Shown here one piece after another: positions 3,400 to 20,007 of a stretch of 32,077 nt of DNA. Origin of the DNA: a virus; IMG/VR virus record IMGVR_UViG_3300009428_000036, positions 1 to 32,077 of that record. The stretch is one strand, 5' to 3'. The stretch's first letter is position 1, and each line of letters begins with the position of its first letter. The notes under the pieces were generated by a model. It was not told the DNA's origin. It saw only the letters and a program-made list of their open reading frames with translations, and searched no databases. Position numbers and translations under genes: made by a program.

Positions 3400-3786
3400 A
3401 TGGATATACATTTAATACAGGAAGTAGTTAAGGAAATATTACCAAAGGTAATTAAAAAGTACGGGTATAGTAAATTTACAGAATGTACTCCTTATGTAGA
3501 ATACGAAAAGAGCATTTACGCAAGACTTGCAGGAGAAGAAGACGATGGAGAATTAGGAGAAGAATGTCCTGATGCTGAGTACGATCGTATCGATAATTCA
3601 ATTATATTTTACTACCCTCAAATGACTAGTAGAAAACATATAATAGAAACACTAATACATGAATATCAACATTACCTTCAGTCTCCAAGCTGGATGACTA
3701 GGTACTATAATATGGGGTACAGGTACGATAACCACCCTTACGAATTAGCAGCAACATCAGAAGAAGTAAATTGGAATAAGATATGA
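3400..3786 (+). CDS. Small HExxH zinc metallopeptidase-like protein
   Basis: HEYQH gives the zinc ligands H87 and H91 and the catalytic E88, numbered from the ATG at 3400. The helix ELAATSEE (115-122) may supply the third ligand. A preceding Asp/Glu-rich loop (46-60) leads into a hydrophobic strand (IIFYYP). The frame is open further upstream (TTG at 3361, ATG at 3382). I prefer 3400 because it leaves a 47-nt gap like the other transcription-unit gaps here, with an AT-rich TATATAAA-type stretch, and gives a compact helical N terminus. This is the second HExxH protein in a row; the C-terminal domain of the preceding gene is the other. The end overlaps the next gene by ATGA. The substrate is unknown. 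Confidence 0.65.
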   Translation: MDIHLIQEVVKEILPKVIKKYGYSKFTECTPYVEYEKSIYARLAGEEDDGELGEECPDAEYDRIDNSIIFYYPQMTSRKHIIETLIHEYQHYLQSPSWMTRYYNMGYRYDNHPYELAATSEEVNWNKI

Positions 3787-4328
3787 AAAATAGCATAGTA
3801 GAATTACTAGAGGCACATCCTCTACCGGAAGAAAAAGAAAAACCACCATACAAAATATACTGTGATATGGATGGAGTACTGACTAATTTTGAATCTAGGT
3901 TCGAACACTACTCAGGAATGGCCCCTAAAGAATATGAAAAGGCTAACGGCCAACCTGCTTTCTGGAACCTTATAGATGTGGAAGTAGGAGTTAAATTCTG
4001 GGCTGGAATGGACTGGATGCCTGAAGGTCAAAGACTATGGAACTTTATATCTCCATACAATCCCGACTTATTAACATCTCCTTCTAGAGATAATAATTCT
4101 AGACTAGGTAAGAATATATGGGTTAAGAATAAATTATCTCCTAAACCCAAAGTAATATTTGCTTATTCAAAAAGTAAACAGAGGTATGCTAATGAAAATA
4201 GTATACTAATAGACGATAAGCCATCTAACATAGACGAATGGGCAGCAAGTGGAGGAATAGCAATAAAATGTAAAGACGGTGATGTAACTTCTGTAATTAG
4301 TAAACTAAAAGAATTAGGATATGAGTAA
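3783..4328 (+). CDS. HAD-superfamily 5'(3')-deoxyribonucleotidase-like phosphatase
   Basis: Motif I is CDMDGVL, with nucleophile D28 and acid/base D30. Motif II is LLTSPS (T98/S99). A lysine-rich segment at 110-132 supplies motif III, and LIDDKPSN (142-149, D144/D145) is motif IV. Size (181 aa) and the 'xMDGVLTxFE' start fit the NT5C-type deoxyribonucleotidases that many large phages use to adjust dNMP pools. The start overlaps the metallopeptidase stop by 4 nt (ATGA), and the end overlaps the next gene by 8 nt. The N terminus (IVELLEA) carries an LxE site, but this could be chance in a Glu/Leu-rich helix. The family is confident; the exact nucleotide is inferred. Confidence 0.8.
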   Translation: MKNSIVELLEAHPLPEEKEKPPYKIYCDMDGVLTNFESRFEHYSGMAPKEYEKANGQPAFWNLIDVEVGVKFWAGMDWMPEGQRLWNFISPYNPDLLTSPSRDNNSRLGKNIWVKNKLSPKPKVIFAYSKSKQRYANENSILIDDKPSNIDEWAASGGIAIKCKDGDVTSVISKLKELGYE

Positions 4329-4936: not shown

Positions 4937-5293
4937 ATGACACAAAAGCAATTATTAGAATCCGTACTTACTGAGCTTACTTCCATAAAAAAGCATATGC
5001 CTAATGGGGAACTTAAGCAAATGCAAAAAGACATGGTAGATCTTAAAGACGACATATCGGACCTTAAATACACTTTACTTAACCCAGACAATGGAGTTAT
5101 AGTAAATACGAATAAAAACTCTGAATTTAGAGAGATAATGCAAGCTGGAGATAAAGAGTTTCAACTTAAATTGCTTGAACTACAGGAATTAAAGAGGTGG
5201 AAAGAAGGAGTTACTAAAGCTTTATGGATTCTATTTACTGGTCTAGCAGGTGTTATAATTAAATTACTAACAGAGGCAGTTAAGAATGGCTAA
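4937..5293 (+). CDS. Coiled-coil plus C-terminal transmembrane protein (XhlA/holin-accessory-like layout)
   Basis: In 118 residues there is an N-terminal heptad-like helix (5-48, with regularly spaced L/I and charged residues), a short polar linker, a second charged helix (63-90) and one hydrophobic segment (about 92-111, ALWILFTGLAGVIIKLL) followed by a short polar tail. This layout matches XhlA-type haemolysin/holin-accessory proteins and other small tail-anchored phage membrane proteins. No endolysin gene is seen next to it, so a lysis role is only a possibility. A strong late-promoter-like box lies 22 nt upstream, suggesting late expression. The start is the first ATG after the box. Confidence 0.6.
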   Translation: MTQKQLLESVLTELTSIKKHMPNGELKQMQKDMVDLKDDISDLKYTLLNPDNGVIVNTNKNSEFREIMQAGDKEFQLKLLELQELKRWKEGVTKALWILFTGLAGVIIKLLTEAVKNG

Positions 5294-5304: not shown

Positions 5305-5940
5305 ATGAAGTTAGCAGAATTAAAACAACTAGTACGAGAAGGCCTCTGGGCTAATATCAATGCTAAGAAAAAAGCAGGTAAGAAATCTTCTCATAAGAAC
5401 TCTAAAGCGTATAAGGCAGCATCAAAAGCCGGGAATGCACTAGAGAAGACAAAGAATGAAACTGCCCTCGCTCTAGATAAACTGACAGTACTGAGTGTAA
5501 TTGACGGAGATAGGAACTTGGACAACGAACACTTACGTAAATTATTTGCAGATTCTGTTGGCACTTTCTACATATATACCAATGAGGAGGGAGAGTATGA
5601 AAATACTAAAAAAATAAGCAAACAAGATGCATATAAGTATGTTGACTACTATAATGCTAGATTGAAAAGAAAAAAAGATAAAGTAGAGAAATTAGGAGCT
5701 GAATTAGGAGTTTTAGGAGTTGAATCAGAACTACAATTCAAAGTAGGTGAACTATCAGCTGACCCCTCTACATTTTCAGCAAACGAAGGAGATCATAAAC
5801 CAATGAATCCCGGAATACTAAAAGATAGGTTAGGTAAACTATCCTGCAGTAAAGTAAGAACAGCGAAAGGAAAGTTAGAAGATAAGGGTACGACCTATGC
5901 TAAAGCTCTCCAAAGGTATTTAAACTACCATTGCCAATGA
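5305..5940 (+). CDS. Lysine-rich protein with capsid-targeting-like N terminus
   Basis: I do not recognise the family. The first 14 residues (MKLAELKQLVREGL) closely match the starts of the genes at 9475 and 15478 and end in a VxE|G site resembling the T4 prohead protease signature. This is followed by a very basic stretch (KKKAGKKSSHKNSKAYK, 21-37), a mixed domain and a C-terminal segment with two cysteines (SCSK, YHC). Basic internal head proteins of T4 (IPI-III) carry the same arrangement: a short targeting peptide, a cleavage site, then a basic body. I infer that this protein is packaged in the head. It overlaps the next gene by 4 nt (ATGA at 5937). Confidence 0.6.
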   Translation: MKLAELKQLVREGLWANINAKKKAGKKSSHKNSKAYKAASKAGNALEKTKNETALALDKLTVLSVIDGDRNLDNEHLRKLFADSVGTFYIYTNEEGEYENTKKISKQDAYKYVDYYNARLKRKKDKVEKLGAELGVLGVESELQFKVGELSADPSTFSANEGDHKPMNPGILKDRLGKLSCSKVRTAKGKLEDKGTTYAKALQRYLNYHCQ

Positions 5941-6563
5941 TATTAACAGGAAGTACACTCAACAGAGACGCTTATTTTGTTAATGCGACAGAGGAAACTA
6001 GTACTCTTAAGGATAGAGGCTGTGTAGACCTATTCGATCAGAACGGATACCATTTGACTAAGGCCGAACAAGCTTTTCTAGGTTATAATGGATATAACCC
6101 CGTAGAGAGGAGACATGAAGATTGCTTAAGGTACGATTGGTTGGTTTGGGACAAAAGAGAAGGAGCACATATTAATCATTCAGACTTATTTGAAAGAAAA
6201 GGATTCAACGACCATGCTAGAGAGCAATTATTAGCTTTAGCAACTGTTAACCCTATGTTACATAAGTTAGTTAAAATGAAACCAAAATGGGGCATAGACA
6301 TTTCTATAGATTACGTATCGGTAGATGCAGTTTTTGAAGTATTTCATTATGAATGGGATTCTTTTGATTATGATACATTATTAGAGAAAAAGTTGGAATT
6401 AGAGCAATTTATTCTTAACTTGGACTGGGATGATGTAGCTAAGACTCTATGGAAAAAGAAAGATGAATGGTACAACTTAGATTTTTTCGCTCAAACTCAA
6501 TGGAGAACAGATTATTTCGGATTATCACCAGAAAAGTTTAAAAACGTTATTTGGGAAGAGTAA
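5937..6563 (+). CDS. Hypothetical phage protein, aromatic-rich, acidic
   Basis: No family is recognised. I place the start at the ATG at 5937, which overlaps the upstream stop as ATGA, in preference to the in-frame TTG at 5931. The protein (208 aa from this start) is rich in W, Y, F, D and E: several Trp-Asp pairs ([28 protein letters not shown]) and no signal peptide or membrane segment, so it is likely a soluble cytoplasmic protein. Helical sections are likely around residues 70-100 and 140-185. It ends its transcription unit; a promoter-like TATTTATA box follows before the 956-aa gene. Confidence 0.55.
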
Positions 6564-6569
6564 TCTATT

Positions 6570-6581
6570 TATTTATATAGC
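6570..6581 (+). promoter_or_regulatory. Late-promoter-like TATTTATA box (variant)
   Basis: TATTTATATAGC in the 34-nt gap before the 956-aa gene. The TATTTATA core ends 20 nt before the ATG at 6598. It differs from the palindromic form in the last four bases. Confidence 0.45.
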
Positions 6582-6597
6582 TATACAACATACACAT

Positions 6598-9468
6598 ATG
6601 ATGACTTATCAAGAAATTAAAGACCGTTTATCTAAATGCGAATTAGCATTATCTACGATTAAAAACGGTACACACCGTAATTCTACTTCTATAAACTTAA
6701 TTAAAACTAAAGAATCATTAGAAGTTCTTAAAGAATCGCTAACTAATCAATTGACCTTAATAAAAGAAGAAGACATGGGAGACGATGGATATGTATCCAC
6801 TGACGATGAAGGAGCAGCAGAAGATTTAGCAAACAAGGGTGTTAAAGTGAAACTTACTAAAGAGAACGAACAAGTAGAATTCTCAGCTGATGAAGTAAAA
6901 TTACTTGCAAAGGATGTAGGAAAAGCAGTAATAACAGCTCTTAGACAGGCAGGTGATGAAATAGACAGTATTAAAGCACATGATTTTGATATAAATACTT
7001 TTGAGATATACGTAAAGTACAAAAGTGATTTTGAAGATGAATTTGTATTTAATATTATAGGTGCTAAATTACACTTAGTAGATTTTACTGTAGATAAGGT
7101 AGTAGGAGACGTAGGAGTTAAACCTTCAGGAGAACCATTTATTAACGTAGATGTAGTAGCTAATGAATTAACTAAGCATTTTACGTCTCTTAATGAACAG
7201 ACTATTACTGAAGAAGAGAACGATAGACAGAAGTACTTACGAATGCTCGATATGTACAAGAGAGCTGCAAGAAATGATAGAAAAGACTTACGTCCTAAAT
7301 TAGAGAAAGCTGCTAAACAGCTAGGAATTAAATTACAACTCTCAGAAGCAGCAGAAGGAATATTCTATTTAAAGGTAGATATTAGAGATGCTAGAAGAGC
7401 TATAGAAATATTAGACGATAGGTACAGAAAACAAGTTGAATATAGCGGTTCAGATACATACTACTTTGGAGATGAACAAACAGCATACGATGCTATGATG
7501 GACTTCTCAGCCAATGATGTAGTAGTATCAGATACAAACTTAGACTTATTTGCAGAAAATAAACAATTAACGGAAGTTGAGGCAGTCACTTTTGGGTACG
7601 ATTTAGATAATATACAACAAGTAGTTGACCATTTACAGAAGAACTACGAAGAGGAAGTAGACTACGAATTACATATAGGAAGAGGAGATGACTTACCTAA
7701 CGCAGTTACTATAAAAAATCCTGCATTACAAAAAGACTACGACTTAAACGATATGCTTAATGCAGCTCAAAGTGATGAAGAGAGGTACGATGCATATACT
7801 AAAGAAGGAGCTGAACACCCTGAAGGTGGAGATTTAGACGTAGGACATCAAGATGATGAGCCGAGTATGCTTAAAAAAGATTTATACGATATAGCTGTTT
7901 ATGCTTCTAAATTATATAAGCAATTAGATAAGTACGATAAGATGGATGGAGAAGTAGATTTTCCTCATTGGTGGCAAAAGAAAGTTACCTTAGCTAGACA
8001 GTATGTATCTTCAGCACAACACTACTTGGAAGCAGAAGAAAAGCAACCTATGATAGATGCATTAGCCTTACAGGAAGGTGTATTCGATCAATTTGATGCT
8101 TTACCTCCAGGTAGAGGTAATTTAGATTTTAACGACATACTATACCTTAGAGGAGCAGTTGCAGACCTTAAAGACGAAATAGCTCAGATATATAGAGATA
8201 TGGAACAGGAAGCTGAACCAGAAGGAGGTCCAATGGCAGACATGTACGGAAATCTTTTAAATAAGGCTGAAGTAAAATTACATAGAATGCAAAAGCAAAT
8301 TGCAGACTATGATATGAACGAAGGAAAGCAGACAGAAGCAGAATTAAAAGATAAGTGGAGAGAGTGGAATAAAAAACACCCTAAAGATCAAATTGACTGG
8401 AATGAATATAGAGAAGAGCATGAAGATGAGCTAATAAATGAAATTAATATCAACCCTGAAGCAGAAAAATACGTAAAAAGATTTATAAAAGGAGTTGCAC
8501 AGAAATACGGCTACGGTGAAATGGATGCTGTTCATTTAATCTACCAAGTACTTTCCAATACAGGGTACTTGGATATGAGACTTGAAGGTAAAAAAGATAA
8601 AGCACTCTTGAGAGAATATACAGACAATTCATTCAAAGGATCAGAATTAATAGACGATGCTAATAAGAGAGGACCTGATATGTTCGGTAAAGGTATATTT
8701 GCCGACTTACTTCCTAAAGGTGTAGCTAGTGAAAATGCTGCCGTAGAAGCTTTAAAAGCTCATGATAAGAGTCCTATTAAAGCTAGAATGGGAAGATATG
8801 CACCAATGTTTGTTCACGTTCAATACCATACTTTAGAGCATGAAGGTGAAGACTATAGAATGCATCAAACACAGTACTATAATAGCAACTTTAAAGACAA
8901 AGATCCAAACTTTAATCCTGGAGTATCTGAAATTACCTTATTTAAAGTTCTTGAAAAAGCTACTTCTCACAGAGAAAGAGGTAAGGATGAAAATTTAGGG
9001 ACTATTATTGTTAAGACCGATCAATATGTACAGGATCTTAGAGATTTACCTGGACTAGGTAAAAGACATATGGAAGAAGCAGTTAAGGAAGGAACCGGTA
9101 ACGAAAAAGAACTTAGAGGTAAAGAAATGGTTGACTATATCATGAAAAGATGGAATTGGTCAGAAGAAAAAACACTGAAATTTCTTGCAGATAAATTTGG
9201 GAATAGTCAAGAAATTAAGGAAGGAAGAGGAGATTTACAGGCTATCATGAAAGTAGTTGATGACATGGCAGCAGAAGATGGAATAACAACTAAAGACGCA
9301 GCAGAAGAAATAATCCACAATCTTAGAATGACCTACGACTTAGATGCCATGGATGAATCATTAGTTAACGAAGAAGCTACTTGTTGCGGTAAATGCGGCA
9401 GAGTACATATTAAAGGTAACTGTAAAAGACCTTTTCTAAAAGGAAAGTCTCACTGCAGAACTAAATAA
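6598..9468 (+). CDS. 956-aa multidomain phage protein with C-terminal zinc-binding module; possibly processed head protein
   Basis: The largest complete ORF here. The family is not recognised by name. Visible parts: a helical N terminus (1-58); an acidic alpha/beta domain (~85-200); a basic helix (208-245); an alpha/beta domain (253-320) and another (327-385); a helical domain rich in Y/W (420-480, with PHWWQKKV); coiled coil (510-575); a long C-terminal domain (616-915); and a terminal Cys cluster (CCGKCGR 929-935, C942, C953) likely to bind zinc. [L/I/V]xE motifs fall between several segments (E200, E250, E326, E493, E615, E925), so maturation by the prohead protease is possible but unproven. 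Two ATGs (6598, 6601) are equally good starts. Net acidic, no membrane segment. Confidence 0.65.
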
Positions 9469-9474
9469 GAATCT

Positions 9475-10086
9475 ATGAAAGTAAAAGACTTAAAAAAATT
9501 AATTGAAGAAGCTTATATACAAGTTCTTAAAGAAGCTGATGAACCTACCCCGGAAGATCCGGTAGGTGATGAAAAAGCATCAGAAGAGACAGTATTAGAA
9601 GATGCTACGGATACAATGTTAGAAAAGTTTCCTACTCTTAAATCAACGTTAGTTAAACTAATGACAGGAGACTACAAAGAATTTGTGGACACTATTGACT
9701 GGGTATCACCCAAACCTACAACATTCAGAGTTAACCTAGTAAACGGCCAAGACTTTTCTTTAAAGTGGACAGGAAAAAACTTCCAAGCTCATATATTAGG
9801 TAAAAGGTATATGTTAGGGAACATTAATGACTTCCAACAAGCTTTAGATAAACTAGCTAGACTCTATCAAGAAGCACCTCTTAAAGGAGCAGGTGAAGAA
9901 GGTGAAGGAGGAGAAGCAGGAGAAGCAGACTTCGGAGGCGGAAGCGGTGGAGGAGACTTCCCCGGAGAAGAAGGTGGAGGAGCAGCAGGCGGTGAAGCCG
10001 GTTCTGACGATGCCGGAGGAGCAGAAGAACCAGCTGATACATCAGGAGATATAGATTTCGAAGCAGGAGAAGAACCAGAAGCATAA
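9475..10086 (+). CDS. Capsid-targeting-like N terminus with Gly/Glu-rich acidic tail
   Basis: It starts MKVKDLKKLIEEAYIQVLKE, nearly the same amphipathic peptide as the genes at 5305 and 15478, with IEE|A as a possible prohead-protease site. Residues ~38-140 form a compact alpha/beta domain (KPTTFRVNLVNGQDFSLKW, then GKRYMLGNINDFQQALDKL). Residues ~143-203 are almost entirely G, E, A, D, S and P, probably disordered and highly acidic. I infer a head-associated or scaffold-like role from the N terminus, the acidity and the position upstream of the terminase. It follows the 956-aa gene by 6 nt and precedes the nuclease-like gene by 12 nt, so it is probably cotranscribed. The family is not recognised. 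Confidence 0.6.
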   Translation: MKVKDLKKLIEEAYIQVLKEADEPTPEDPVGDEKASEETVLEDATDTMLEKFPTLKSTLVKLMTGDYKEFVDTIDWVSPKPTTFRVNLVNGQDFSLKWTGKNFQAHILGKRYMLGNINDFQQALDKLARLYQEAPLKGAGEEGEGGEAGEADFGGGSGGGDFPGEEGGGAAGGEAGSDDAGGAEEPADTSGDIDFEAGEEPEA

Positions 10087-10098
10087 TAATAACAGTTT

Positions 10099-11040
10099 AT
10101 GAATATTGTAGATAAATTATATACAGAATGGGCTTGGAGAACTAAATCAGGAATTCCCGATATGAGTAATCCGCAAGATAAAGCTATATTAGATAACATT
10201 ATTTTTGAGACATCAGGAAAAGTTTTAAACGAAGTAGCTGTGGAGTATGATAAGTACCTAGTAGATAATGGGTTTCCAATCATACCTCAAGCAAAAGGTA
10301 AATATAGCCAACCACAAGGCTCAGGAGATATTAAGGTACATCCTGATGATTTAGCAACATACCAAAAGATGTTCCCAATGAATGCAGGAGATCAGACAGT
10401 AGGTCCAGGAGAAATAGCGCTTTACTGGTTATTTCAGCATCAAAAAAACCCTGTTACATGTACGGATAATAGAGGAGGGTCTGAACCAGACTTAACTATC
10501 GGATCAGTAAAAGCAGAAGTTAAGGCATATAAGTCACATAACGGGAAAATAACATTAGGCAAATTCGGCAGCCAGAAGACCAATCTAGTTCTATTAACAG
10601 TAGTTTTCGGAATACAGGCATTAAGTTCTGTGTTAAATATGGAATCAGGAGATAAAGTAGTTAGGCCAACTAGTTTTACTAAAAACGAATTAATAAGGGC
10701 TTTTGAATTTTATTTTAAAGTAAAAAACGCACCAGGATTCCTAGCAGCTTCATCTCAATTCGATTTTATTAGATCGTTGAAAGAAAAAATTGATATGGTA
10801 GATAGAGTTTTACAGAACCCTAAATCAGCTGAAGAAGCAGCCTCTAAAACATTAGGTAGGATAGCTAAAGAGAAATTTAAAGTTAAACCAGGATTTGGCA
10901 ACTATATAGCATCTACTTTAAAGAGCGGAGACATACACTTCTTTCACGTAACTGAAACAGCATTAGATGTTAATTTACTAGACTATGTTAGTATATCAGC
11001 AGGTGAAGTAAAGGTGGACTATATGGCACTATTTGGCTAA
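10099..11040 (+). CDS. PD-(D/E)XK nuclease-like protein upstream of terminase
   Basis: The core EPDLTIGSVKAEVKAYKSH holds D131, then E140-V-K142, the PD-(D/E)XK active-site pattern on two strands, with E105 in a preceding helix (GPGEIALYWLF) as a possible extra ligand. The N terminus (LYTEWAWRTKSGIPDMSN) is a helix plus Pro/Asn turn. The C-terminal half is helical (SLKEKIDMVDRVLQN) and ends in a beta-rich part. Such a fold often serves in restriction-type or repair endonucleases; acting with packaging or on host DNA are both possible. It sits 10 nt upstream of the large terminase gene, after the 203-aa protein. The nuclease fold is inferred from motif spacing only. Confidence 0.55.
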   Translation: MNIVDKLYTEWAWRTKSGIPDMSNPQDKAILDNIIFETSGKVLNEVAVEYDKYLVDNGFPIIPQAKGKYSQPQGSGDIKVHPDDLATYQKMFPMNAGDQTVGPGEIALYWLFQHQKNPVTCTDNRGGSEPDLTIGSVKAEVKAYKSHNGKITLGKFGSQKTNLVLLTVVFGIQALSSVLNMESGDKVVRPTSFTKNELIRAFEFYFKVKNAPGFLAASSQFDFIRSLKEKIDMVDRVLQNPKSAEEAASKTLGRIAKEKFKVKPGFGNYIASTLKSGDIHFFHVTETALDVNLLDYVSISAGEVKVDYMALFG

Positions 11041-11050
11041 AAAATAAGTT

Positions 11051-12625
11051 ATGGCAAGAGACATAAAAAAAATAATCGCACAGGAATACATCAAGTGCGC
11101 TAAAGATCCGGCGTACTTCATGAAGAAGTATTGCCATATACAGCACCCTACTAGAGGTAGGATTCTTTTTAATTTATACCCTTTTCAATCAGAAGTACTA
11201 CACCTATTTAGAGATCAACAGTATATAATTACTTTAAAGTCTAGACAGTTAGGTATTTCAACTTTAGCAGCTGCTTATAGCTTATGGTTGATGTTATTTC
11301 ATAAAGATAAAAACGTACTAGCTTTAGCAACTACACAGGCAACTGCAAGAAACCTTGTTACAAAGACAATGTTTATGTACGATGAACTACCTAAATGGTT
11401 AAAACTTCCAGCATTAGAGAAGAATAAACTATCATTAAGGTTAAAAAACGGATCTAAAATAACAGCTAAGTCATCAAATGCAGACGCAGCAAGATCAGAA
11501 GCAGTATCACTACTTCTAATAGATGAAGCAGCATTTATCGATAATATTGATGAAACATTTGCGGCAGCACAACAAACACTAGCAACTGGTGGACAGTGTA
11601 TGGCTTTATCAACTCCCAACGGAATTGGTAACTGGTTTCATCAAACATGGGATAAAGCAGAAGCAGGGGATAATTCATTTTTACCCATAAGACTCCCTTG
11701 GACAGTACATCCAGAAAGAAATGATGAATGGAGAAAACAACAAGATAGGGACTTAGGACCTAGGATGGCAGGACAGGAATGTGACTGTGATTTCTTAGCA
11801 TCTGGTGATACAGTATTTGAACCAGAAGATTTAAGTTTCTACGAACAAACGTACTTAAAAGAGCCTGTAGAAAAAAGAGGTATAGATGGTAATTTATGGA
11901 TCTGGGAGCAACCAGACTACTCTAAATCATATATGGTTGTAGCAGATGTCGCTAGAGGAGACTCTAAAGATTACTCTGCATTTCACGTTTTTGATATAGA
12001 AACATGCGTACAAGTAGGGGAATATAAAGGAAAATTATCTCCTAAAGATTACGGAAATGTCTTAGTAGCTATAGCAGCAGAGTATAACGATGCGCTACTT
12101 GTAGTAGAGAATGCAAATATTGGATGGGCTACAATAGAGCAGATATTAGAAAGAGAATATAGAAATCTATACTATAGCGCTAAGAGTCAAATGGATACAG
12201 TAGAATCATATATGTCCAAATATGAAAGAGATCAGCTAGTGCCAGGCTTTACAATGTCGGTAAGAACAAGACCGCTAGTGATAGCTAAAGCAATGGAGTA
12301 TGTACGTGAAAAAGCTGTTACAATACAGTCTAAACGTACTTTAGGAGAGATGAGAGTATTTGTATGGAAGAACGGTAAACCACAGGCACAGATAAATTAT
12401 AATGATGATTTACTCATAGCACTTGCTACTGGACTGTATGTAAGAGATACTGCATTGAGGTTACGGCAACAGGGAATGGACCTAGCTAGAGCACAATTAT
12501 CATCATTTACTAACCTTAATGCAAAAAACCAAGCTGTTATATCAACAGTTGCTTCCCAAGCAAATAATCCGTATATTGTTAAAACACAACACGGCCAAGA
12601 AGATATCTCTTGGTTAATTGGATAA
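11051..12625 (+). CDS. terL: Terminase large subunit (T4 gp17-like), packaging ATPase/nuclease
   Basis: This is the DNA-packaging motor. The ATPase domain has YPFQSEVLHLF (Q-motif-like adenine-binding region, 43-53), Walker A SRQLGIST (64-71, with Ile where T4 has Lys), Walker B LLLIDEAA (D158, E159) and the coupling motif STPNG (187-191). The RNase H-fold nuclease domain has D299 (VVADVARGD), E353 (LLVVENAN) and D452/D453 (NYNDDLLIAL), the expected acidic triad. Length is 524 aa against 610 in T4; the shortfall is mostly at the N terminus. The start follows an A-rich leader with no Shine-Dalgarno. The portal gene comes next after 26 nt, without the sheath and tube genes found there in T4. 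No small terminase is recognised in the window. Confidence 0.95.
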   Translation: MARDIKKIIAQEYIKCAKDPAYFMKKYCHIQHPTRGRILFNLYPFQSEVLHLFRDQQYIITLKSRQLGISTLAAAYSLWLMLFHKDKNVLALATTQATARNLVTKTMFMYDELPKWLKLPALEKNKLSLRLKNGSKITAKSSNADAARSEAVSLLLIDEAAFIDNIDETFAAAQQTLATGGQCMALSTPNGIGNWFHQTWDKAEAGDNSFLPIRLPWTVHPERNDEWRKQQDRDLGPRMAGQECDCDFLASGDTVFEPEDLSFYEQTYLKEPVEKRGIDGNLWIWEQPDYSKSYMVVADVARGDSKDYSAFHVFDIETCVQVGEYKGKLSPKDYGNVLVAIAAEYNDALLVVENANIGWATIEQILEREYRNLYYSAKSQMDTVESYMSKYERDQLVPGFTMSVRTRPLVIAKAMEYVREKAVTIQSKRTLGEMRVFVWKNGKPQAQINYNDDLLIALATGLYVRDTALRLRQQGMDLARAQLSSFTNLNAKNQAVISTVASQANNPYIVKTQHGQEDISWLIG

Positions 12626-12629
12626 ACCA

Positions 12630-12641
12630 TATTTATAAATA
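12630..12641 (+). promoter_or_regulatory. Late-promoter-like palindrome TATTTATAAATA
   Basis: The same perfect 12-bp palindrome as at 4903 and 22401, containing TATAAATA at 12634-12641. It lies between the terminase stop (12625) and the portal ATG (12652), 10 nt upstream of that ATG, so transcripts from it would have a very short leader. Confidence 0.6.
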
Positions 12642-12651
12642 AACCACATAG

Positions 12652-14574
12652 ATGGCAGATACTTCACTATTTAAAAGACTAGGTAGACTTTTTTCTTCCG
12701 ATGTAATAATAAGAAACATCGGAGGAGACCAACTTAAAGTTGCCGACGTAAACCAGATACAAACAACAGGTAAGTATCAAACTAATTCTCTAGTTGATAG
12801 ATTTTCTAGACTATATATCTACAATAATAAGAATATATTTAATCCAAATCTAAATTACCAAACACTACGTATACAGTTATACTCTGATTATGAAGCAATG
12901 GACACTGATCCACTTATTGCTTCTACTTTAGATATATTGGCAGATGAAGCTACACTAAAAAGCGATATGGGAGAAGTACTCTCGATTAAATCCTCAGATG
13001 AGAATATACAAAAGGTACTATATAACTTATTCTACGACGTTCTTAATATAGAGTTTAATCTCTGGTCATGGACTAGGAATATGTGTAAATACGGTGATTT
13101 CTTCTTAAAATTAGAGATTGCAGAAGATTTTGGAGTATACAACGTTCTTCCGTATACAGTTTACCATATGTCAAGACAGGAAGGAACAGACCCAGAAAAT
13201 CCTAGTAGAGTAACTTTCCAATTAGACCCTGACGGATTAGCTTCTTCACAAGATCCTAACTATCTGCCAAAAAGTAATAAAAAAGTTGTAGAGTTTGACA
13301 ACTACGAGATAGCACACTTTAGGTTAATATCGGATACAAACTACCTACCCTATGGTAGATCTTTCGTCGAACCGGCTAGAAAGATATTTAAACAACTTAC
13401 TCTAATGGAAGATGCGATGTTAATACACCGTATCATGAGAGCTCCGGAAAAGAGAACATTCTATGTCAACGTTGGACAGATACCTCCTAACGAAGTTGAG
13501 CAGTTTATGCAAAAGACTATTAATACAATGAAAAAAACACCGTATGTTGATCCTGCTACAGGGGATTACAACTTACGTTTCAATATGATGAATATGATGG
13601 AAGACTTCTACCTACCAGTAAGGGGAGGAGATACATCAACAAAGATAGAGACTACGAAAGGTCTAGAATACGACGGTACAAATGATATAGAATACTTAAG
13701 AGATAAGATGTTCGCTGCTTTAAAAGTTCCAAAGGCATATTTTGGATACGAAAAAGACTTAAGCGGTAAAGCAACTTTAGCAGCAGAAGATATTAGATTT
13801 GCCAGAACAGTAGAGAGAATACAGAGAATTTTAGAATCTGAATTAACTAAGATTGCATTAGTGCATTTATATACCCAAGGGTTTAAAGGTGAGTCGCTTA
13901 CTAACTTCGAAATAAACTTAACTAACCCGTCAATAATATTTGAACAAGAAAAAGTAGCACTGCTTAAAGAAAAAGTAGATTTAGCATCACAAATGCTGGA
14001 TACTAAATTATTTCCTACAGACTACATATACGATAATATATTTAAACTATCAGAAGACCAGTACATGGAAATGAGAGACTTGGTAGCTGAAGATAAAAAG
14101 AGGTTATTCAGAATTACACAGATAGAGAACGAAGGAAATGATCCGGCTAAGTCAGGTAAGTCCTACGGTACTCCACACGATTTAGCGTCACTATACGGAC
14201 GTAGACAGGGTGAACAAAAAGGTATGCCATTTGGTAAAGTTCCTCCTGGATACGAAGATGATACTCCAGGCATAGGTAAAATAGGACCAGAAGGAGGTAG
14301 ACCAAGAGTTAAAGCTTCACACTATGGAACAAATGACGGCCTAGGAGGAAGAGATCCTCTTGGAAAACACGGCATGGAAGGTGGATTTGATTCTGATAAT
14401 GAAAATGTTAATGAGCAAGATACGGGAACTAGGGTAGATAAGACACTAGCTAGATCACTTTTCTATCAAAATAGAGATATTTTCTCGGAAAAGAAGCAAA
14501 TTATCTTTGAAAGTAAGGAAAAAGAAGAGGATAAGTTACTTGATGAATCACAAATCAAGGATTTAGATAATTAA
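12652..14574 (+). CDS. 20: Portal protein (T4 gp20-like)
   Basis: The portal forms the dodecameric vertex through which DNA is packaged and on which the prohead is nucleated. Diagnostic gp20-type segments are RNIGGDQ near the N terminus, then YGRSFVEPARKIFKQLTLME, MLIHRIMRAPEKRTFYVNVG, and GLEYDGTNDIEYLRDKMFAALKVP in short blocks, then FARTVERIQRILESEL. At 640 aa it is longer than T4 gp20 (524 aa). The extra length is a C-terminal Gly/Pro/Asp-rich, probably disordered tail of about 120 residues (from about 500), ending in an acidic Lys/Glu segment. A late-promoter-like palindrome lies 10 nt upstream. Order terminase-portal-(core proteins)-protease-scaffold-capsid supports the call. Confidence 0.93.
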   Translation: MADTSLFKRLGRLFSSDVIIRNIGGDQLKVADVNQIQTTGKYQTNSLVDRFSRLYIYNNKNIFNPNLNYQTLRIQLYSDYEAMDTDPLIASTLDILADEATLKSDMGEVLSIKSSDENIQKVLYNLFYDVLNIEFNLWSWTRNMCKYGDFFLKLEIAEDFGVYNVLPYTVYHMSRQEGTDPENPSRVTFQLDPDGLASSQDPNYLPKSNKKVVEFDNYEIAHFRLISDTNYLPYGRSFVEPARKIFKQLTLMEDAMLIHRIMRAPEKRTFYVNVGQIPPNEVEQFMQKTINTMKKTPYVDPATGDYNLRFNMMNMMEDFYLPVRGGDTSTKIETTKGLEYDGTNDIEYLRDKMFAALKVPKAYFGYEKDLSGKATLAAEDIRFARTVERIQRILESELTKIALVHLYTQGFKGESLTNFEINLTNPSIIFEQEKVALLKEKVDLASQMLDTKLFPTDYIYDNIFKLSEDQYMEMRDLVAEDKKRLFRITQIENEGNDPAKSGKSYGTPHDLASLYGRRQGEQKGMPFGKVPPGYEDDTPGIGKIGPEGGRPRVKASHYGTNDGLGGRDPLGKHGMEGGFDSDNENVNEQDTGTRVDKTLARSLFYQNRDIFSEKKQIIFESKEKEEDKLLDESQIKDLDN

Positions 14575-14578
14575 TCAC

Positions 14579-14590
14579 TATTTATAAAGG
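14579..14590 (+). promoter_or_regulatory. Late-promoter-like TATTTATA box (variant)
   Basis: TATTTATAAAGG in the 52-nt gap between the portal stop and the ATG at 14627. The TATTTATAAA part matches the palindromic boxes; the final two bases differ. A small hairpin (TGTAC/GTACA, 14596-14610) lies between the box and the gene, so it would be in the leader. Confidence 0.45.
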
Positions 14591-14626
14591 TAAGGTGTAC
14601 TTCGTGTACAACAAAACAATAGAATA

Positions 14627-15481
14627 ATGCGCATTAAACACAGTAAGTATAAAAATACCGGGCTAATATTTGAATTGCTTGTCAAGCAGATTGCAGCAGA
14701 TACCTTAGATAAAAAGGACTCTGCAGCTGTAAGCATATTAAAAAATAACTTTACAGGAAGAACAGCTTTGGTACGTGAATTCAAATTGTATGAGTTTATT
14801 CTCAAAAACAAATCAGTATCACAATATAAAGCAGAGTCTATCGTATCGACTATTATCGAAGTAGCTCGCACAATAGATAGAAAGGTACTTAAAAAACAAA
14901 AATATAGTCTAATAAGAGAAATAAAAGAGAGCTACGACTTAGATGAGTTCTTCTCTATTTCGGTTAAAGACTATAAACCATTAGCAGCTTTGTTCTGTTT
15001 AATGGAGGCTCATGAAGTTACAGATGTAATAGATCCTAATTTCCTAGTTGACAATAAAACTACTATATTAGAGCACCTAACTAAAGAGCAACAAAACAAA
15101 AAAGAAGTAAGAGATACACTTATCGAAGAGTATTCGAAATACGATAAAGATTTAAAACTTCTTACATTTAAAATACTATTAGAGAAATTTAACTCTAAAT
15201 ACGGTACACTACTTCCAGAACAGAAAAACATATTAAAAGAATTTATTACTTCAGTTGATTCATCTACAAGATTAAGAAACGTAGTTAATGAGGAATTTAA
15301 GAAACTAAAATCTGCACTAGATAAAATAAAAGCATCCGTAGAAGATGAAATCGTCTCTATTAAGCTACAGGAGATTACTAAAGCAATTAAACCAGTACCC
15401 AAAACAAAAAAAGTAACTGATAATCATCTAGTAAACATAATGCAGTACTACGAACTGATTAAAGAACTAAAGGTACTATGA
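14627..15481 (+). CDS. Hypothetical head-cluster protein, lysine-rich and helical
   Basis: No named family is recognised. It lies between the portal and the 88-aa core-like protein, the part of the T4 map that holds small prohead core genes (67, 68), but at 284 aa it is larger than either. The N terminus (MRIKHSKYKNTGLIFELLVKQ) is basic then amphipathic. The rest is almost all helix with many K, E, L and I, likely coiled coil around 190-250 (KKLKSALDKIKASVEDEIV). There is no cysteine-rich site, membrane segment or signal peptide. It ends in an ATGA overlap with the next gene. A structural or assembly role in the head is inferred from position only. Confidence 0.6.
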   Translation: MRIKHSKYKNTGLIFELLVKQIAADTLDKKDSAAVSILKNNFTGRTALVREFKLYEFILKNKSVSQYKAESIVSTIIEVARTIDRKVLKKQKYSLIREIKESYDLDEFFSISVKDYKPLAALFCLMEAHEVTDVIDPNFLVDNKTTILEHLTKEQQNKKEVRDTLIEEYSKYDKDLKLLTFKILLEKFNSKYGTLLPEQKNILKEFITSVDSSTRLRNVVNEEFKKLKSALDKIKASVEDEIVSIKLQEITKAIKPVPKTKKVTDNHLVNIMQYYELIKELKVL

Positions 15482-15744
15482 AAGTAAGCCAACTTAAGGA
15501 ACTTATTAAAGAAGTACTACAGGAATTAAATGAAATAAGTGCTACCAATGCAGGTGGTGCTTCTTTTACACCCGGTACAGGAGCGCAATATGCGACTCCT
15601 AATGCTTTTTCTAAGAAAGGAAAAAAGAACAATGCAACTAAGTATGCAGAGAAACTTGGGTATAAAGTAGCTAAAACAAAAAAAAGACCACATAACACTA
15701 AAATGTTTGACTATCTAGATGAGAACAATACAAGAAAAATATAA
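15478..15744 (+). CDS. Small prohead-core-like protein with capsid-targeting-like N terminus
   Basis: The 88 residues start MKVSQLKELIKEVLQELNE, the best example of the shared amphipathic N-terminal peptide, with IKE|V as a possible prohead-protease site. A Gly/Ala/Thr/Pro linker follows (GGASFTPGTGAQYATPNAF, 26-44), then a basic body (KKGKKNNATKYAEKLGYKVAKTKKR). Size, position between portal and protease, and basic character resemble T4 gp67 (80 aa, prohead core), but T4 gp67 homology cannot be shown by eye. It overlaps the upstream gene by 4 nt and the 740-aa gene by 26 nt. Confidence 0.6.
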   Translation: MKVSQLKELIKEVLQELNEISATNAGGASFTPGTGAQYATPNAFSKKGKKNNATKYAEKLGYKVAKTKKRPHNTKMFDYLDENNTRKI

Positions 15745-17941
15745 CGCAATACTAGAGGGTAACTTCTCTAAGTCTCAATTTGTTAAAGATGCAAAGAGAG
15801 AATTATCTCAATTTCTATCTCCATTTAATGGATATGAAGATACAGTAAGTATCCTTAAAAGTAAAGGAGTAATATTCGAAGCTGCAAAGAAAGAGGTACC
15901 GCACTACGACAAACCAGAACCTGGTTACTCTATCGAAACTATCGAAAGAGGAATAGATTACGAACTAGAAGGAATGGGACTAATGTCTCAAGAAACAGTA
16001 TCAGAAAAGGATTACGCTAAGGCTAAACAAAAAGCTGAGAAGAATCTGAAAAAAGATCCTAACCACTACTTACATTTATTAGCAGGAGAATCTAAAAAAG
16101 TAGACAAACATGATCAAATGGTTCCAGTAAAAAAGAACAACCATGTAGATACTATTAATGGATTAAAGAAAGCTGAATTAAGAGAGGCTATAGACTATAC
16201 GCTAGATCCTTATGAAGATAGAGATGAAATACTTAAACAAGTAATGTCTCTTTTAGTAAGAGAAAAAGGAGCAAGCAGAGAAGAACTTAAAGGCTTTATC
16301 AGCACTCATATGGAAGACATTTTAAATGCACCAGATGAAGCAGCAATCGTAGATGAATTCGAACAATACATATCAGTTAATAGTGATTATGTAGACGAAA
16401 AGAACGGTAAAGATCACGACGGAGATGGAGACGTCGATGGAGATGATTATATGGCTGCTAAAGATAAGGCCATCAAAGGAGCAATGAAAAAGAAAGAACC
16501 TGCTCAACAAGTATCAGGTAAAGCTAGTAGAGATACAATGTCTGTTGGTAGTATGAAAAGATTAAGAGGATTTGATGATCAGTTTGATGAATCAATAGGA
16601 GGACCAGATCATCAAAAACTAGAAGATTTGGGATATAGTGTTGGAGAAAAAGCATTTATGAGTATAGACGATGAAATCTTCAAGCATCCGAACTTTGATA
16701 GTTTTGTAAGTGGTTTTATGAAAGGCTTTAAAGACAATATGGAAGCAAGTCAGGACTATGCAGCACATTATGTTAACGAAGGTAGACGTAGAAAAATGAA
16801 AGGCGGTAAAGTCGTAACAGAAAATGATTACGAAACCGGAGGATATGTAGAATCTATGGGACCTATGTTAGATAAAGTACTCAAACAACTTATATCAGTA
16901 TGGGATGAATGGAAAGACGGCCCAGCTACAGAACCGGCGATGGTTCCTTTTGCTAAAAAAGACTTAGTAAGTTATATTGACAGCAAAATAACAGAAGGAG
17001 AGGATATAGTAGAGGATAGTATTGAAGAGCATCAAGAATTAAAAGAAGCTTTTAAAGCTATTATATCTAAAGTACTTCAAGAAGAAGTTATAACAGAAGC
17101 AGCAACAGGTAACTTATCTAGAGTAGCTACTTCTTATGACGATTTCGAAGGAATGCAAACAGCTGTTAACAGTTTAGAAAATGTAGTAACAGAAGTTGAG
17201 TCATTTTATTCTAAGACAAAAGAAAAGATACAAAAGGTATACGATAGCTTTAAAGATATTAAGAACGTAGAAGGATTAGCAGTTGGAGCTATGTTAGGAC
17301 CAGCTATTGAATCTGCTTTTAGAAAAGATTTAATGCCGGTAACAGAAAAAGGATTTACTAGAGGGTTAGAAATGCCTAAAGTAAAAATGTTAGAAACAGA
17401 CGGTATAGCAGAAGAAGAGTTGGATGAAAAGGAAACAGTTTTTACACCTATTAACGAGGCATTAAATAAAGAACTTAAAGATTTTGGACCTGATTTAATG
17501 AAGAGATTAAAAACTGCAGGATTTCAAACAGGGTTATTTAAAGGACAAGGAATGGTTCCACCAGAAGCTCAAAAGAAAATTAAAGCTAACCCAAAATTAG
17601 CAGGTATTGCATACAGAAGATATCCTGACGGGTATGAATTCCTTGAAGTATCAGTTCAAAGAGAAAAAGGAGAAGAGTTAGAAAAAGTTGCAAAATACTT
17701 TTCAACACCAGAAGGCCAATATGGACCAGATAAAGATGCGGGATGGGTAATCAAAAACATTCGTAACGTAAATACTGGAGATATATACAGAAGTAACATT
17801 GGTGGAATGAATGGTTTAGCTACTATTACTTACTTTAGAGCAGAAGAAGCAGATAGTGGTAGATATGGCACGGAAAAAATAACGTCTAGAGATACTTTAG
17901 CAGCAGAAGGTAAGAAGTATAAATACTCTAAAAGAAAATAA
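15719..17941 (+). CDS. 740-aa head-cluster protein with EF-hand-like calcium loop
   Basis: The family is not recognised. It sits between the core-like protein and the prohead protease, so it is probably a head-assembly or internal head protein. The start at 15719 (26-nt overlap with the previous gene) gives MRTIQEKYNAILEG, with ILE|G at residues 11-14, a prohead-protease-type site. Residues 232-243 (DHDGDGDVDGDD) form an EF-hand/dockerin-like calcium loop. A second amphipathic helix (FKAIISKVLQEEVITEA, 445-461) resembles the N-terminal targeting peptide of neighbouring genes and ends in ITE|A. The C-terminal domain (about 580-725) is alpha/beta (GIAYRRYPDGYEFLEVSVQ). A multi-part, possibly processed protein is plausible. 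Confidence 0.62.
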   Translation: MRTIQEKYNAILEGNFSKSQFVKDAKRELSQFLSPFNGYEDTVSILKSKGVIFEAAKKEVPHYDKPEPGYSIETIERGIDYELEGMGLMSQETVSEKDYAKAKQKAEKNLKKDPNHYLHLLAGESKKVDKHDQMVPVKKNNHVDTINGLKKAELREAIDYTLDPYEDRDEILKQVMSLLVREKGASREELKGFISTHMEDILNAPDEAAIVDEFEQYISVNSDYVDEKNGKDHDGDGDVDGDDYMAAKDKAIKGAMKKKEPAQQVSGKASRDTMSVGSMKRLRGFDDQFDESIGGPDHQKLEDLGYSVGEKAFMSIDDEIFKHPNFDSFVSGFMKGFKDNMEASQDYAAHYVNEGRRRKMKGGKVVTENDYETGGYVESMGPMLDKVLKQLISVWDEWKDGPATEPAMVPFAKKDLVSYIDSKITEGEDIVEDSIEEHQELKEAFKAIISKVLQEEVITEAATGNLSRVATSYDDFEGMQTAVNSLENVVTEVESFYSKTKEKIQKVYDSFKDIKNVEGLAVGAMLGPAIESAFRKDLMPVTEKGFTRGLEMPKVKMLETDGIAEEELDEKETVFTPINEALNKELKDFGPDLMKRLKTAGFQTGLFKGQGMVPPEAQKKIKANPKLAGIAYRRYPDGYEFLEVSVQREKGEELEKVAKYFSTPEGQYGPDKDAGWVIKNIRNVNTGDIYRSNIGGMNGLATITYFRAEEADSGRYGTEKITSRDTLAAEGKKYKYSKRK

Positions 17942-17944
17942 AAT

Positions 17945-18523
17945 ATGGCAAATGTATTAGTAAATGTTACACCATTTAAATCTATCCTTAAAGAATCTAA
18001 GGAAAGACCGGGAGTATATGAAGTTGAAGGAGTAATGCAACGAGCTGGTGCAAAAAACCAAAACGGAAGAATATACGAAAAGGACCTCTTAATGAGAGAG
18101 GCTAAGAAGTATGTTGATGAATTCGTTAAAAACGGAAACGCTTTCGGAGAATTAGATCACCCGGAATCAGCAGTAGTATCTCTTAAGAATGCTTCACATG
18201 TAGTTAAAGACCTATATTGGAATGGAGACGACTTAATGGGTAAAGTAGAACTACTAAATACACCAGCAGGAAATATAGTAAAAGAGATAATTAAAGCAGG
18301 ACATACTATAGGAATATCCTCTAGAGGTACCGGTTCAGTACAACAAACAAACGAAGGGTACTTAGAAGTACAATCAGATTTTGAATTAGTATGTTGGGAC
18401 TTTGTATCTAATCCATCTACACACGGAGCTTTTATGAATCCCGTATCACTTAACGAAGGTACTCAACAATTAGACAAGTACGGAAAGGTACATAGTATAA
18501 TTAACGACATACTAAGAGCATAA
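17945..18523 (+). CDS. 21: Prohead core protease (T4 gp21-like)
   Basis: This is the serine protease that matures the prohead by cutting scaffold, capsid and internal proteins at (L/I)xE sites. Key segments are NQNGRIYEKDLL (39-49), GELDHPES with catalytic His72, and GISSRGTGS with Ser125 or Ser126 as nucleophile; ELVCWDFVSNPS is the downstream conserved block. Length is 192 aa against 212 in T4. Its own N terminus has ILKE|S (residues 15-18), a candidate self-cleavage site. The ATG follows the 740-aa stop by 3 nt. A hairpin terminator follows its stop, separating it from the scaffold/capsid unit. Confidence 0.93.
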   Translation: MANVLVNVTPFKSILKESKERPGVYEVEGVMQRAGAKNQNGRIYEKDLLMREAKKYVDEFVKNGNAFGELDHPESAVVSLKNASHVVKDLYWNGDDLMGKVELLNTPAGNIVKEIIKAGHTIGISSRGTGSVQQTNEGYLEVQSDFELVCWDFVSNPSTHGAFMNPVSLNEGTQQLDKYGKVHSIINDILRA

Positions 18524-18696: not shown

Positions 18697-20007
18697 ATGG
18701 CAAACAAAGATTTATTCAAGCAAGCTATTGCTGAAGCTAAATCTGTAAGAGAAGCTGCTATTGCAAACGCTAAAGAAGCTTTGGAAGAGACTTTAACTCC
18801 TCATCTTAAAGACATGTTAGCTGCTAAACTTCAAGAAATGGATGATTCATCTAAAGACGAAGAAGTAGTTAAAGAAGTCGAAGGAGAGGTAGAAGAAGCA
18901 ATGGACAAAGACAAAAAAGACGAAGCAATAGAGGAAGATTTTGCAGCAGAAGCTGAAGAAGTAGGAGCTGAAGAAGAAGCGGACATTGATTCAGAAGAAT
19001 CTGAAGAGGAAGCTGAAGAAGAGGTAGAGGTAAAGGACATGGAAGTGGACGACCTTAAAGACCTTATCCGTAATATTATATCTCAAGAAATGGGAGCTGA
19101 AGGAGAGGAAGAGATTCCTGGAGAAGAGCTACCATCAGACGATATGATCGGAGTGGAAGACGAAGAAGAAATTGATTTAGATGAATTACTAAGAGAGATT
19201 ACTGAAATGTCTGACGAACACAATGACGAATCCATAGCGGATGAAGGAATTGAAGAAGTAGTTGACCCTGTAACAGTTGGTGCTGGTGTTGCTGCCATAT
19301 TTGGCGGTGCTGCTGGACTATCACACTTAATGGACAAACTTGAAGCTGGAGAATTTGGAGACAGAGGAAAAAAATTAGCTCAAGGATTACGTAAAGCAGG
19401 AGGAGCTGCAGCAAGCGTTACTCAACACAGAAATGAATCAGAAATCTCAGAAGAAGAGATTGAAGAGGTAAGACCTGGATATGCAGTAGGAAATTTTGGA
19501 GACCCAATGGAGAATGACTTAATAAAAGCTGTAATGTTCTTAGCCAAACATGCAAAAAAAGCAGGCAAGAAAGTTGGAGATTTTGTTAAAGATATCGAAG
19601 TAGGATCTATGACCAATCAGATGAAAGAAATTGAATTAGAAGAAACTAGTGAACTAGAAGAAGCTATGACAACAATCGAACAACTGAAAGGACAGTTACA
19701 AGAAGTAAACCTTCTTAACGCTAAGTTACTTTATGTAAATAAAGTTTTCAAATCAAGTAGTTTAACTGAATCGCAAAAAGTAAGTGTTATCGCTGCATTC
19801 GATAAAGCCGAAACAGTTAAAGAAGTAAAATTAGTATTCGAAACTGTATCTGATAACGTAGTTGGAAAAACTACTAAAAGTACAATTAAGGAAGCTAGAT
19901 TAGGTATGGCAAGCAAAGCAACTGGAACAACAGCTTCTAAACCAGAAGTAATTTCAGAAGTAAGTGATGCTGTAAGAAGAATGCAAAAATTAGCAGGAAT
20001 AATTTAA
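18697..20007 (+). CDS. 22: Prohead scaffold/core protein (T4 gp22-like)
   Basis: This is the major internal scaffold around which the capsid assembles. It is later cleaved to peptides. The N terminus has AIAE|A (10-14), a canonical protease site. Residues ~48-190 are overwhelmingly Glu/Asp, typical of scaffolds. The C-terminal part (LNAKLLYVNKVFKSS, LTESQKVSVIAAFDKAETV) matches the conserved C-terminal block of gp22 in marine T4-like phages. Two oddities: it is 436 aa against 269 in T4, and residues 190-242 form a non-acidic Gly/Ala-rich insert with a hydrophobic stretch (VTVGAGVAAIFGGAAGLSHL) and a basic helix. It is cotranscribed with the capsid gene 25 nt downstream. Confidence 0.9.
   Translation: MANKDLFKQAIAEAKSVREAAIANAKEALEETLTPHLKDMLAAKLQEMDDSSKDEEVVKEVEGEVEEAMDKDKKDEAIEEDFAAEAEEVGAEEEADIDSEESEEEAEEEVEVKDMEVDDLKDLIRNIISQEMGAEGEEEIPGEELPSDDMIGVEDEEEIDLDELLREITEMSDEHNDESIADEGIEEVVDPVTVGAGVAAIFGGAAGLSHLMDKLEAGEFGDRGKKLAQGLRKAGGAAASVTQHRNESEISEEEIEEVRPGYAVGNFGDPMENDLIKAVMFLAKHAKKAGKKVGDFVKDIEVGSMTNQMKEIELEETSELEEAMTTIEQLKGQLQEVNLLNAKLLYVNKVFKSSSLTESQKVSVIAAFDKAETVKEVKLVFETVSDNVVGKTTKSTIKEARLGMASKATGTTASKPEVISEVSDAVRRMQKLAGII

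Follow-up and report, generated by a model that had tools for sequence, protein, structure and literature searches.

Putative capsid-targeting peptides on unrelated proteins of T4-like phages, one class of which matches the scaffold C-terminal tail

The 32,077-nucleotide stretch of viral DNA considered here (positions 1 to 32,077 of IMG/VR record IMGVR_UViG_3300009428_000036; henceforth the window) is a fragment of a T4-type phage that encodes an S77 prohead protease (17945), the capsid protein gp23 (20033), the portal gp20 (12652), a large terminase and PhoH. Its closest cultured relative is the Flavobacterium phage immuto, accession MW353175, whose host is Flavobacterium sp. LMO8; the capsid proteins are about 70% identical. 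Three proteins of the window, starting at 5305, 9475 and 15478, begin with similar short peptides, and we conclude, with a probability of about 0.78, that such shared N-terminal peptides (tags) are capsid-targeting sequences of a T4-type prohead. We distinguish at least two putative tag families, namely class A, an amphipathic helix of the kind that opens the 15478 protein, and class C, which corresponds to the C-terminal tail of the scaffold. Capsid targeting of the T4 type had been proposed in an initial annotation of the window, and it is the best explanation of the data below, in a form broader and more specific than first proposed. The T4-type head, the unrelated bodies behind the tags, the identity with the scaffold tail and the location near head genes uphold that proposal; what did not survive is the inclusion of a further protein at 24074 and the notion of a phage-specific signal, as the tags are also found in many T4-like phages that are distant relatives.

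Class A tags of the window and their enrichment in related phages

The open reading frames (ORFs) at 5305, 9475 and 15478 do start alike, as originally reported, and are recovered by a profile built from immuto alone (scores in Table 1). Their tag peptides contain VRE, IEE and IKE, in agreement with the [I/V]xE element ascribed to them; the N-termini of the 9475 and 15478 ORFs read MKVKDLKKLIEEAY and MKVSQLKELIKEVL. The DNA of the three tags shows many synonymous differences, and their likeness therefore resides in the peptide. The ORF at 24074, which had been taken for a looser match, scores -5.4; its immuto counterpart starts MRKLVNEVTF and the similarity extends into the body, and we rejected it as a member.

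The tag of the 5305 protein is conserved in relatives (for example MKKSELRQLIKEGLW in locus L339) and an AlphaFold2 model places a helix at residues 3-23 with low confidence. In this family the tag and a C-terminal module are conserved and the middle is variable. The module (5803-5937, RLGKLSCSKVR..YAKALQRYLNYHC) is common to other class A-tagged proteins with differing middles. We also observed this module, KDRLGKLSCSKVR..YAKALQRYLNYHC, in many viral loci (window 5803-5937; L339-L418), with 374 relatives of the 5305 protein; it nearly always forms the extreme C-terminus, mostly after a class A tag, and constitutes a second shared module.

The tag of the 9475 protein has the lowest score of the three, yet it is conserved among its relatives, in which the linker between tag and body ranges from about 10 to more than 200 amino acids (aa). 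Its AlphaFold2 model, of modest confidence, comprises a helix at residues 3-20, a disordered stretch at 22-44 and a folded body at 45-133. In immuto an 841-aa protein carries this body as a C-terminal fusion, and the helix is still present. Foldseek searches of the PDB with 9475 and 5305 gave no significant match, and against viral models 9475 matched only two uncharacterised proteins. The 956-aa protein encoded just ahead of it (6598-9468) contains a phrog_23411 module; in locus L029 (3929-4717) this module belongs to a protein that starts with a short LxE tag. The 956-aa protein looks to be cargo composed of several modules, and in immuto the counterparts of 6598 and 9475 form one fusion protein.

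In immuto, four unrelated proteins start with a class A peptide (MKKSQLRQIIKEAL and similar), and there are further N-terminal sets that we term class B (MENFDLKKFLVENKLT..) and class C (MKKQILSEQFRRMQKLAGIITES). The first class A profile was trained on these four immuto tags alone and contained no window sequence. Comparison of an N-terminal profile with shuffled N-termini had been suggested as a check: among loci other than the window and immuto, 91 of 1,952 N-termini reached a score of 16 or more, many of them orthologues of a single family, that of 15478, whereas at the same cut-off 50 shuffles gave none and about 456,000 internal windows gave 8. With a broader profile, class A starts 255 of 3,300 proteins of the relatives, as against 0-2 in shuffles. 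Among 827 ORFs of random viral contigs there was one class A start and no class C start; these contigs were drawn by a random 15-mer because a scrambled control DNA pattern matched nothing (0 matches versus 47). It should be noted that some loci were retrieved for holding a tag, and given this and the many 15478 orthologues the counts are not prevalence figures. A [LI]xE site lies in or ends the tag in 245 of the 255 class A proteins, compared to 23% of random viral ORFs by the same measure. Searches of GenBank phages by tblastn with the short peptides, a method too insensitive for this purpose, found classes B and C only in immuto and no class A.

Certain terminase large subunits also score as class A, such as a 903-aa protein in the tagged contig L197 (894-3602). 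These are probably false positives that have a conserved N-terminus of their own. One scanned tagged protein matched terminase and Hint/intein models and is probably this L197 terminase.

Class C tags and the C-terminal tail of the scaffold

The class C tag, MKKQILSEEFxRMQKLAGIITE, starts 121 proteins of the relatives and is, as a predicted element, equal to the C-terminal tail of the protein in the gp22 position. In the first locus set RMQKLAGII ends the gene between protease and capsid (68 motif matches). Among 69 distinct genes lying upstream of gp23, 61 have R[MFWI][QK][KRV][LI]AG or a near variant at their end, the remaining eight comprising looser variants (RMRELAGLKK, RWALLAGIK), T4 gp22 and one mis-assigned gene. 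In 43 of 44 non-redundant scaffolds an [ILV]xE lies at most 16 residues ahead of the tail, versus 59% of stretches picked at random from these proteins. To find class C in viral contigs we used a degenerate DNA pattern for RMQKLAGIIxE, which matched 117 viral stretches; some 85,000 prokaryote genomes had no match. The first 80 of these loci contain 88 instances, of which 76 are N-terminal, six C-terminal and six internal. The core of the N-terminal instances mostly begins at residue 7-12, and an LxE precedes it in 104 of the 121 tags.

Unrelated bodies and exchange of tags

The first 78 tagged proteins fell into 40 clusters with no similarity beyond the tag, and 376 tagged proteins of both classes into 169 body clusters devoid of blastp similarity beyond it. 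Pfam and PHROGs searches of 132 tagged representatives returned almost nothing. Furthermore, the putative tag classes are interchangeable on homologous bodies. The immuto protein at 102294 has a class A tag (MKKSELVKLIKEEL), and homologues of its body carry a short class D tag in L029 (MKLSSIILESFDD, E 3e-25) and L069 (MKLQNILFENKEE, E 1e-21) and, more remotely, a class C tag in L171 (E 2e-5); a single protein of L097 has class C followed by class A. The tag-swapped family (L082 2294-2869, equivalent to immuto 102294) contains two hydrophobic stretches like membrane helices, which is unusual for a head-packaged protein. In L195 (4618-7226) a class C tag opens five consecutive genes with different bodies.

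Linkage to head genes and the prohead protease

Tagged genes are concentrated near head genes. In immuto, the 25 kb nearest the head genes hold 32 genes, of which 9 are tagged, as against 2 of 201 in the rest of the genome. The 484-kb phage LR756508 has a class A start on 17 of 55 ORFs in its head region and on none of the 103 ORFs in a region far from it. Of the contigs that are 60 kb or longer, 17 of 19 tagged ones encode the S77 protease, as against 2 of 7 random ones (Fisher P 0.006). An [LI]xE near the N-terminus is found in 62% of the head-proximal proteins of immuto versus 16% elsewhere, and in 53% in the kinase-to-capsid block of the window.

In the window, the T4-like head set (S77/gp21, gp20, gp23) scores far above the Pfam cut-offs. 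Sites of the gp21 type, [LIV]xE, are present in tags, scaffold and capsid, as had been claimed. Close to their own N-termini the protease has ILKE and the scaffold AIAEA, and gp23 has a predicted cleavage after IVSE (ending at 20212). FLTE|A is the place at which the T4 capsid protein is cut, and it aligns with IVSE in the window and immuto, LISE in Mel-JY01 and LLKE in LR756508. A Pfam search with the scaffold at 18697 gave no gp22 match.

Orthologues of the 15478 protein, recognizable by a YxTPxAF motif, sit between gp20 or a 284-aa protein and gp21 in the relatives, which is where T4 has gp67/gp68. Pfam and PHROG searches with 15478 gave no match, nor was sequence homology to gp67/gp68 found. 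Judged by its position, it is probably a head-core protein rather than the packaged cargo that the initial annotation had made of it. Because its family occupies the gp67/gp68 place, we read 15478 as core and 5305 and 9475 as cargo. The adjacent 740-aa protein holds an internal class A-like helix (17036-17101); its immuto counterpart has 360 aa and contains MKKAELKEGFKKLIKKVLSEE.

Downstream of gp23 in LR756508, and adjoining it, are the 5-6 paralogous proteins of L205 (25784-31663; 250-280 aa), which have YRGT/MRGT motifs and N-termini of the MRLKEILLEN type. By eye they resemble ADP-ribosyltransferases, an assignment that Pfam did not confirm.

Proposed role of the tags and alternative explanations

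We infer uptake, cleavage and injection of the tagged proteins along the following lines. By means of the tag, a protein would dock in the prohead core in the manner of the scaffold tail or the core helix. In the course of core degradation and capsid protein trimming, the S77/gp21 protease would also cut at [LIV]xE in or behind the tag, and the freed body would remain in the head, travel with the DNA and probably be injected. The wider proposition, that widespread T4-like phages load accessory proteins by means of interchangeable, gp21-removed modules copied from the scaffold tail (C) or core helix (A), we regard as evenly balanced.

Several considerations weigh against capsid targeting. Packaging of the tagged proteins in the virion and their cleavage are predictions from sequence, and the scaffold and core assignments depend on gene order. 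Since the tag classes were first spotted in immuto, the P value for that phage is optimistic. The class C pattern fixed RMQKLAGIIxE, leaving the N-terminal position and the upstream LxE free, and the conservation of those residues, including the E, is therefore by construction. Scaffold tails vary (RWQKLAG, RFKKLAG, RMRELAG) and the tags keep RMQKLAG, which is partly an effect of the search pattern. Class A tags are not closer to the core protein of their own phage, scoring 32.3 with their own and 30.1 with others (mean rank 0.45). Finally, the likeness of an internal scaffold helix to class A is weak; it is seen in some relatives, and its scores often do not exceed those of shuffles. As for covariation of class C with the scaffold of the same phage, it was judged by eye and is biased by the search pattern.

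Of the alternatives, the one that fares best regards the tags as core-assembly helices and the tagged proteins as extra parts of the prohead core, which are degraded or left in the head. It draws on the same helix being borne by the 15478 orthologues at the gp67/gp68 position and on class C being the tail of the scaffold itself. However, the 169 unrelated body clusters, mostly without a Pfam or PHROG match, and the variable copy number near head genes suggest accessory cargo, and T4 employs the same logic for proteins that it injects (PMC12373910); we hold this alternative to be unlikely. It is much less probable still that the tags are amphipathic helices anchoring proteins elsewhere, in the tail, the baseplate or the host membrane. 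Class A is indeed an amphipathic helix and the class A-like protein 81525 of immuto adjoins baseplate genes, but such anchoring leaves unexplained the match of class C to the scaffold tail, the exchange of classes and the [LIV]xE sites.

We also considered a likeness at the level of DNA or RNA, in the form of a coding 5' regulatory, recombination or translation element, given that the tags always lie at the 5' end of genes and that some neighbouring pairs are nearly identical in DNA (61 of 63 bases in L116). Conserved tag residues, however, use mixed codons, making a regulatory DNA element unlikely; neighbouring tags often differ synonymously, as at 7 of 20 identical residues in L147, and scaffold genes encode the same peptide at their 3' end, so that we give this explanation very little credence. 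A chance resemblance among lysine- and leucine-rich N-termini, the residues concerned being common in AT-rich genomes, has a negligible probability and is refuted for classes A and C by the shuffles, the random contigs and the control DNA pattern reported above.

Comparison with known capsid-loading systems

The internal proteins of T4 are diverse, the capsid-targeting sequence (CTS) being the one thing that they have in common (PMC3012670), and they join the core via this sequence (PMC5694885); IP1-3 are injected and inhibit GmrSD enzymes (PMC12373910). The T4 CTS, on IPI-III and Alt, is like the tags described here in being a short N-terminal peptide on unrelated bodies (PMC3012670, PMC5694885, PMC12373910), and the two further share a gp21/S77 head, [LI]xE sites and diverse, mostly orphan bodies. 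They differ in that MKTYQEFIAEA of IPII/IPIII matches neither class A nor class C; resemblance to T4 gp24 is limited to the short class D starts. T4 gp22 ends in VYAKVASRF, without a class C-like tail, whereas here one tag class corresponds to the scaffold tail. Relative to T4, moreover, there are several interchangeable classes on dozens of unrelated bodies, with up to 17 tagged ORFs in 42 kb, and their packaging is a prediction. We would thus describe the tags as a putative variant of the T4 CTS system with several exchangeable tags, more than 160 unrelated bodies and one tag that equals the scaffold tail.

The propeptides of T4 gp24 and gp23 are comparable as well: the start of the window kinase, MIKLLELLRE, is similar to MAKINELLRE of gp24, and IVSE of the capsid protein to FLTE|A. 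The difference is that the window starts precede enzymes (a kinase and a nucleotidase) and that cleavage here is predicted. Head proteins of SPN3US and phiKZ have N-terminal regions that are cut by a protease and thought to target the head, and two paralogues share 15 N-terminal residues (PMC5694885). These propeptides are mostly longer than 100 residues and found on few proteins, while the present tags span 10-25 residues and occur on very many. In the case of P1 DarB, the first 30 residues are enough to bring a reporter into the capsid (PMC9024508). This is a single signal, borne by few proteins, in a phage for which no separate scaffold has been found; here class C matches a scaffold tail.

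The C-terminal peptide of the P22 scaffold binds the coat protein, and engineered fusions to it load foreign proteins. The tail of the herpesvirus scaffold is cleaved off by the assembly protease. Cargo fusions in these two systems are man-made; here the tail appears to be naturally placed at the N-terminus of cargo. In the open-access literature we found no description of such a tag system and no published virion proteomics of immuto; subscription papers and preprints lay outside the search.

Additional features of the window

The features discussed are collected in Table 1. Weaker [LI]xE matches had been pointed out at the starts of the kinase, the nucleotidase and the 4937 protein. As a set they are enriched, an [LI]xE at residues 4-18 being present in 10 of 19 genes from kinase to capsid, versus about 21% in shuffles and 14% in random viral ORFs; singly they are not callable, and any one of them may be due to chance. 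The kinase start, which compares with MAKINELLRES of T4 gp24, is suggestive of a gp24/CTS-like tag on this single protein. The immuto orthologue of the nucleotidase has MKKVMGNLADLLLEE ahead of the same domain.

Table 1. Features of the window and the evidence for each
Feature	Position	Strand	Evidence
Class A N-terminal tag MKLAELKQLVREGLW on 211-aa protein	5305..5349	+	Profile score 15.2
Predicted cargo protein, 211 aa	5305..5940	+	Class A tag plus shared C-terminal module
Class A N-terminal tag MKVKDLKKLIEEAYIQVLKEA	9475..9537	+	Profile score 9.4
Predicted cargo protein, 203 aa	9475..10086	+	Class A tag
Class A N-terminal helix MKVSQLKELIKEVLQELNE of small conserved core protein	15478..15534	+	Profile score 24.6
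88-aa protein, gp67/gp68 position, probable prohead core protein	15478..15744	+	Gene order versus T4 and relatives
Scaffold C-terminal tail VISEVSDAVRRMQKLAGII, recurring as class C tag in relatives	19948..20004	+	Motif comparison
Internal scaffold helix MEVDDLKDLIRNIISQEM, class A-like	19039..19092	+	Weak
Scaffold, gp22 position between gp21 and gp23	18697..20007	+	Synteny with T4 and relatives
S77 prohead protease (gp21 family)	17945..18523	+	PF03420 E 2e-34; phrog_207 head maturation protease
Major capsid protein gp23	20033..21601	+	PF07068 E 1.5e-82
Portal gp20	12652..14574	+	PF07230 E 5e-69
740-aa protein between core protein and protease	15719..17941	+	ILE near N-terminus
MIKLLELLRE before P-loop (zeta-toxin-type) kinase	1104..1133	+	T4 gp24/CTS-like
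MKNSIVELLE before 5'-deoxyribonucleotidase	3783..3812	+	Suggestive
N-terminus MTQKQLLESVLTE, two L-x-E sites	4937..4975	+	Class A score 5.1, under cut-off

The kinase ORF (1104-2045), whose early start is required for the P-loop, overlaps by 215 bases, in another frame, the Arg/Ser-rich end of a 287-aa lipoprotein-like ORF (455-1318). The 436-aa protein at 2042-3352 combines a nucleotidyltransferase-like start, a zinc ribbon and a metallopeptidase-like part with HEMVHH; its immuto relative has 907 aa and is annotated as NadR. An open-ended ORF of more than 1,400 aa (27732-32075) consists of NVGIGTTSP..KL repeats and probably encodes a tail fibre.

Biological implications

Proteins injected by phages disable host defence and take control of the cell, and there is no sequence rule for recognizing them beyond T4, P1 and a few other models. 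If the tags are loading signals, the more than 160 unrelated families, nearly all without an assigned function, become candidate head-delivered effectors, and a single search with a profile would yield a list of the effectors that hundreds of uncultured phages deliver. The cited T4 literature leaves unexplained how the CTS brings about entry into the prohead, and the correspondence with the scaffold tail would account for the ability of a short peptide to bring a protein there. The tags would also provide a ready-made label for the loading of phage capsids.

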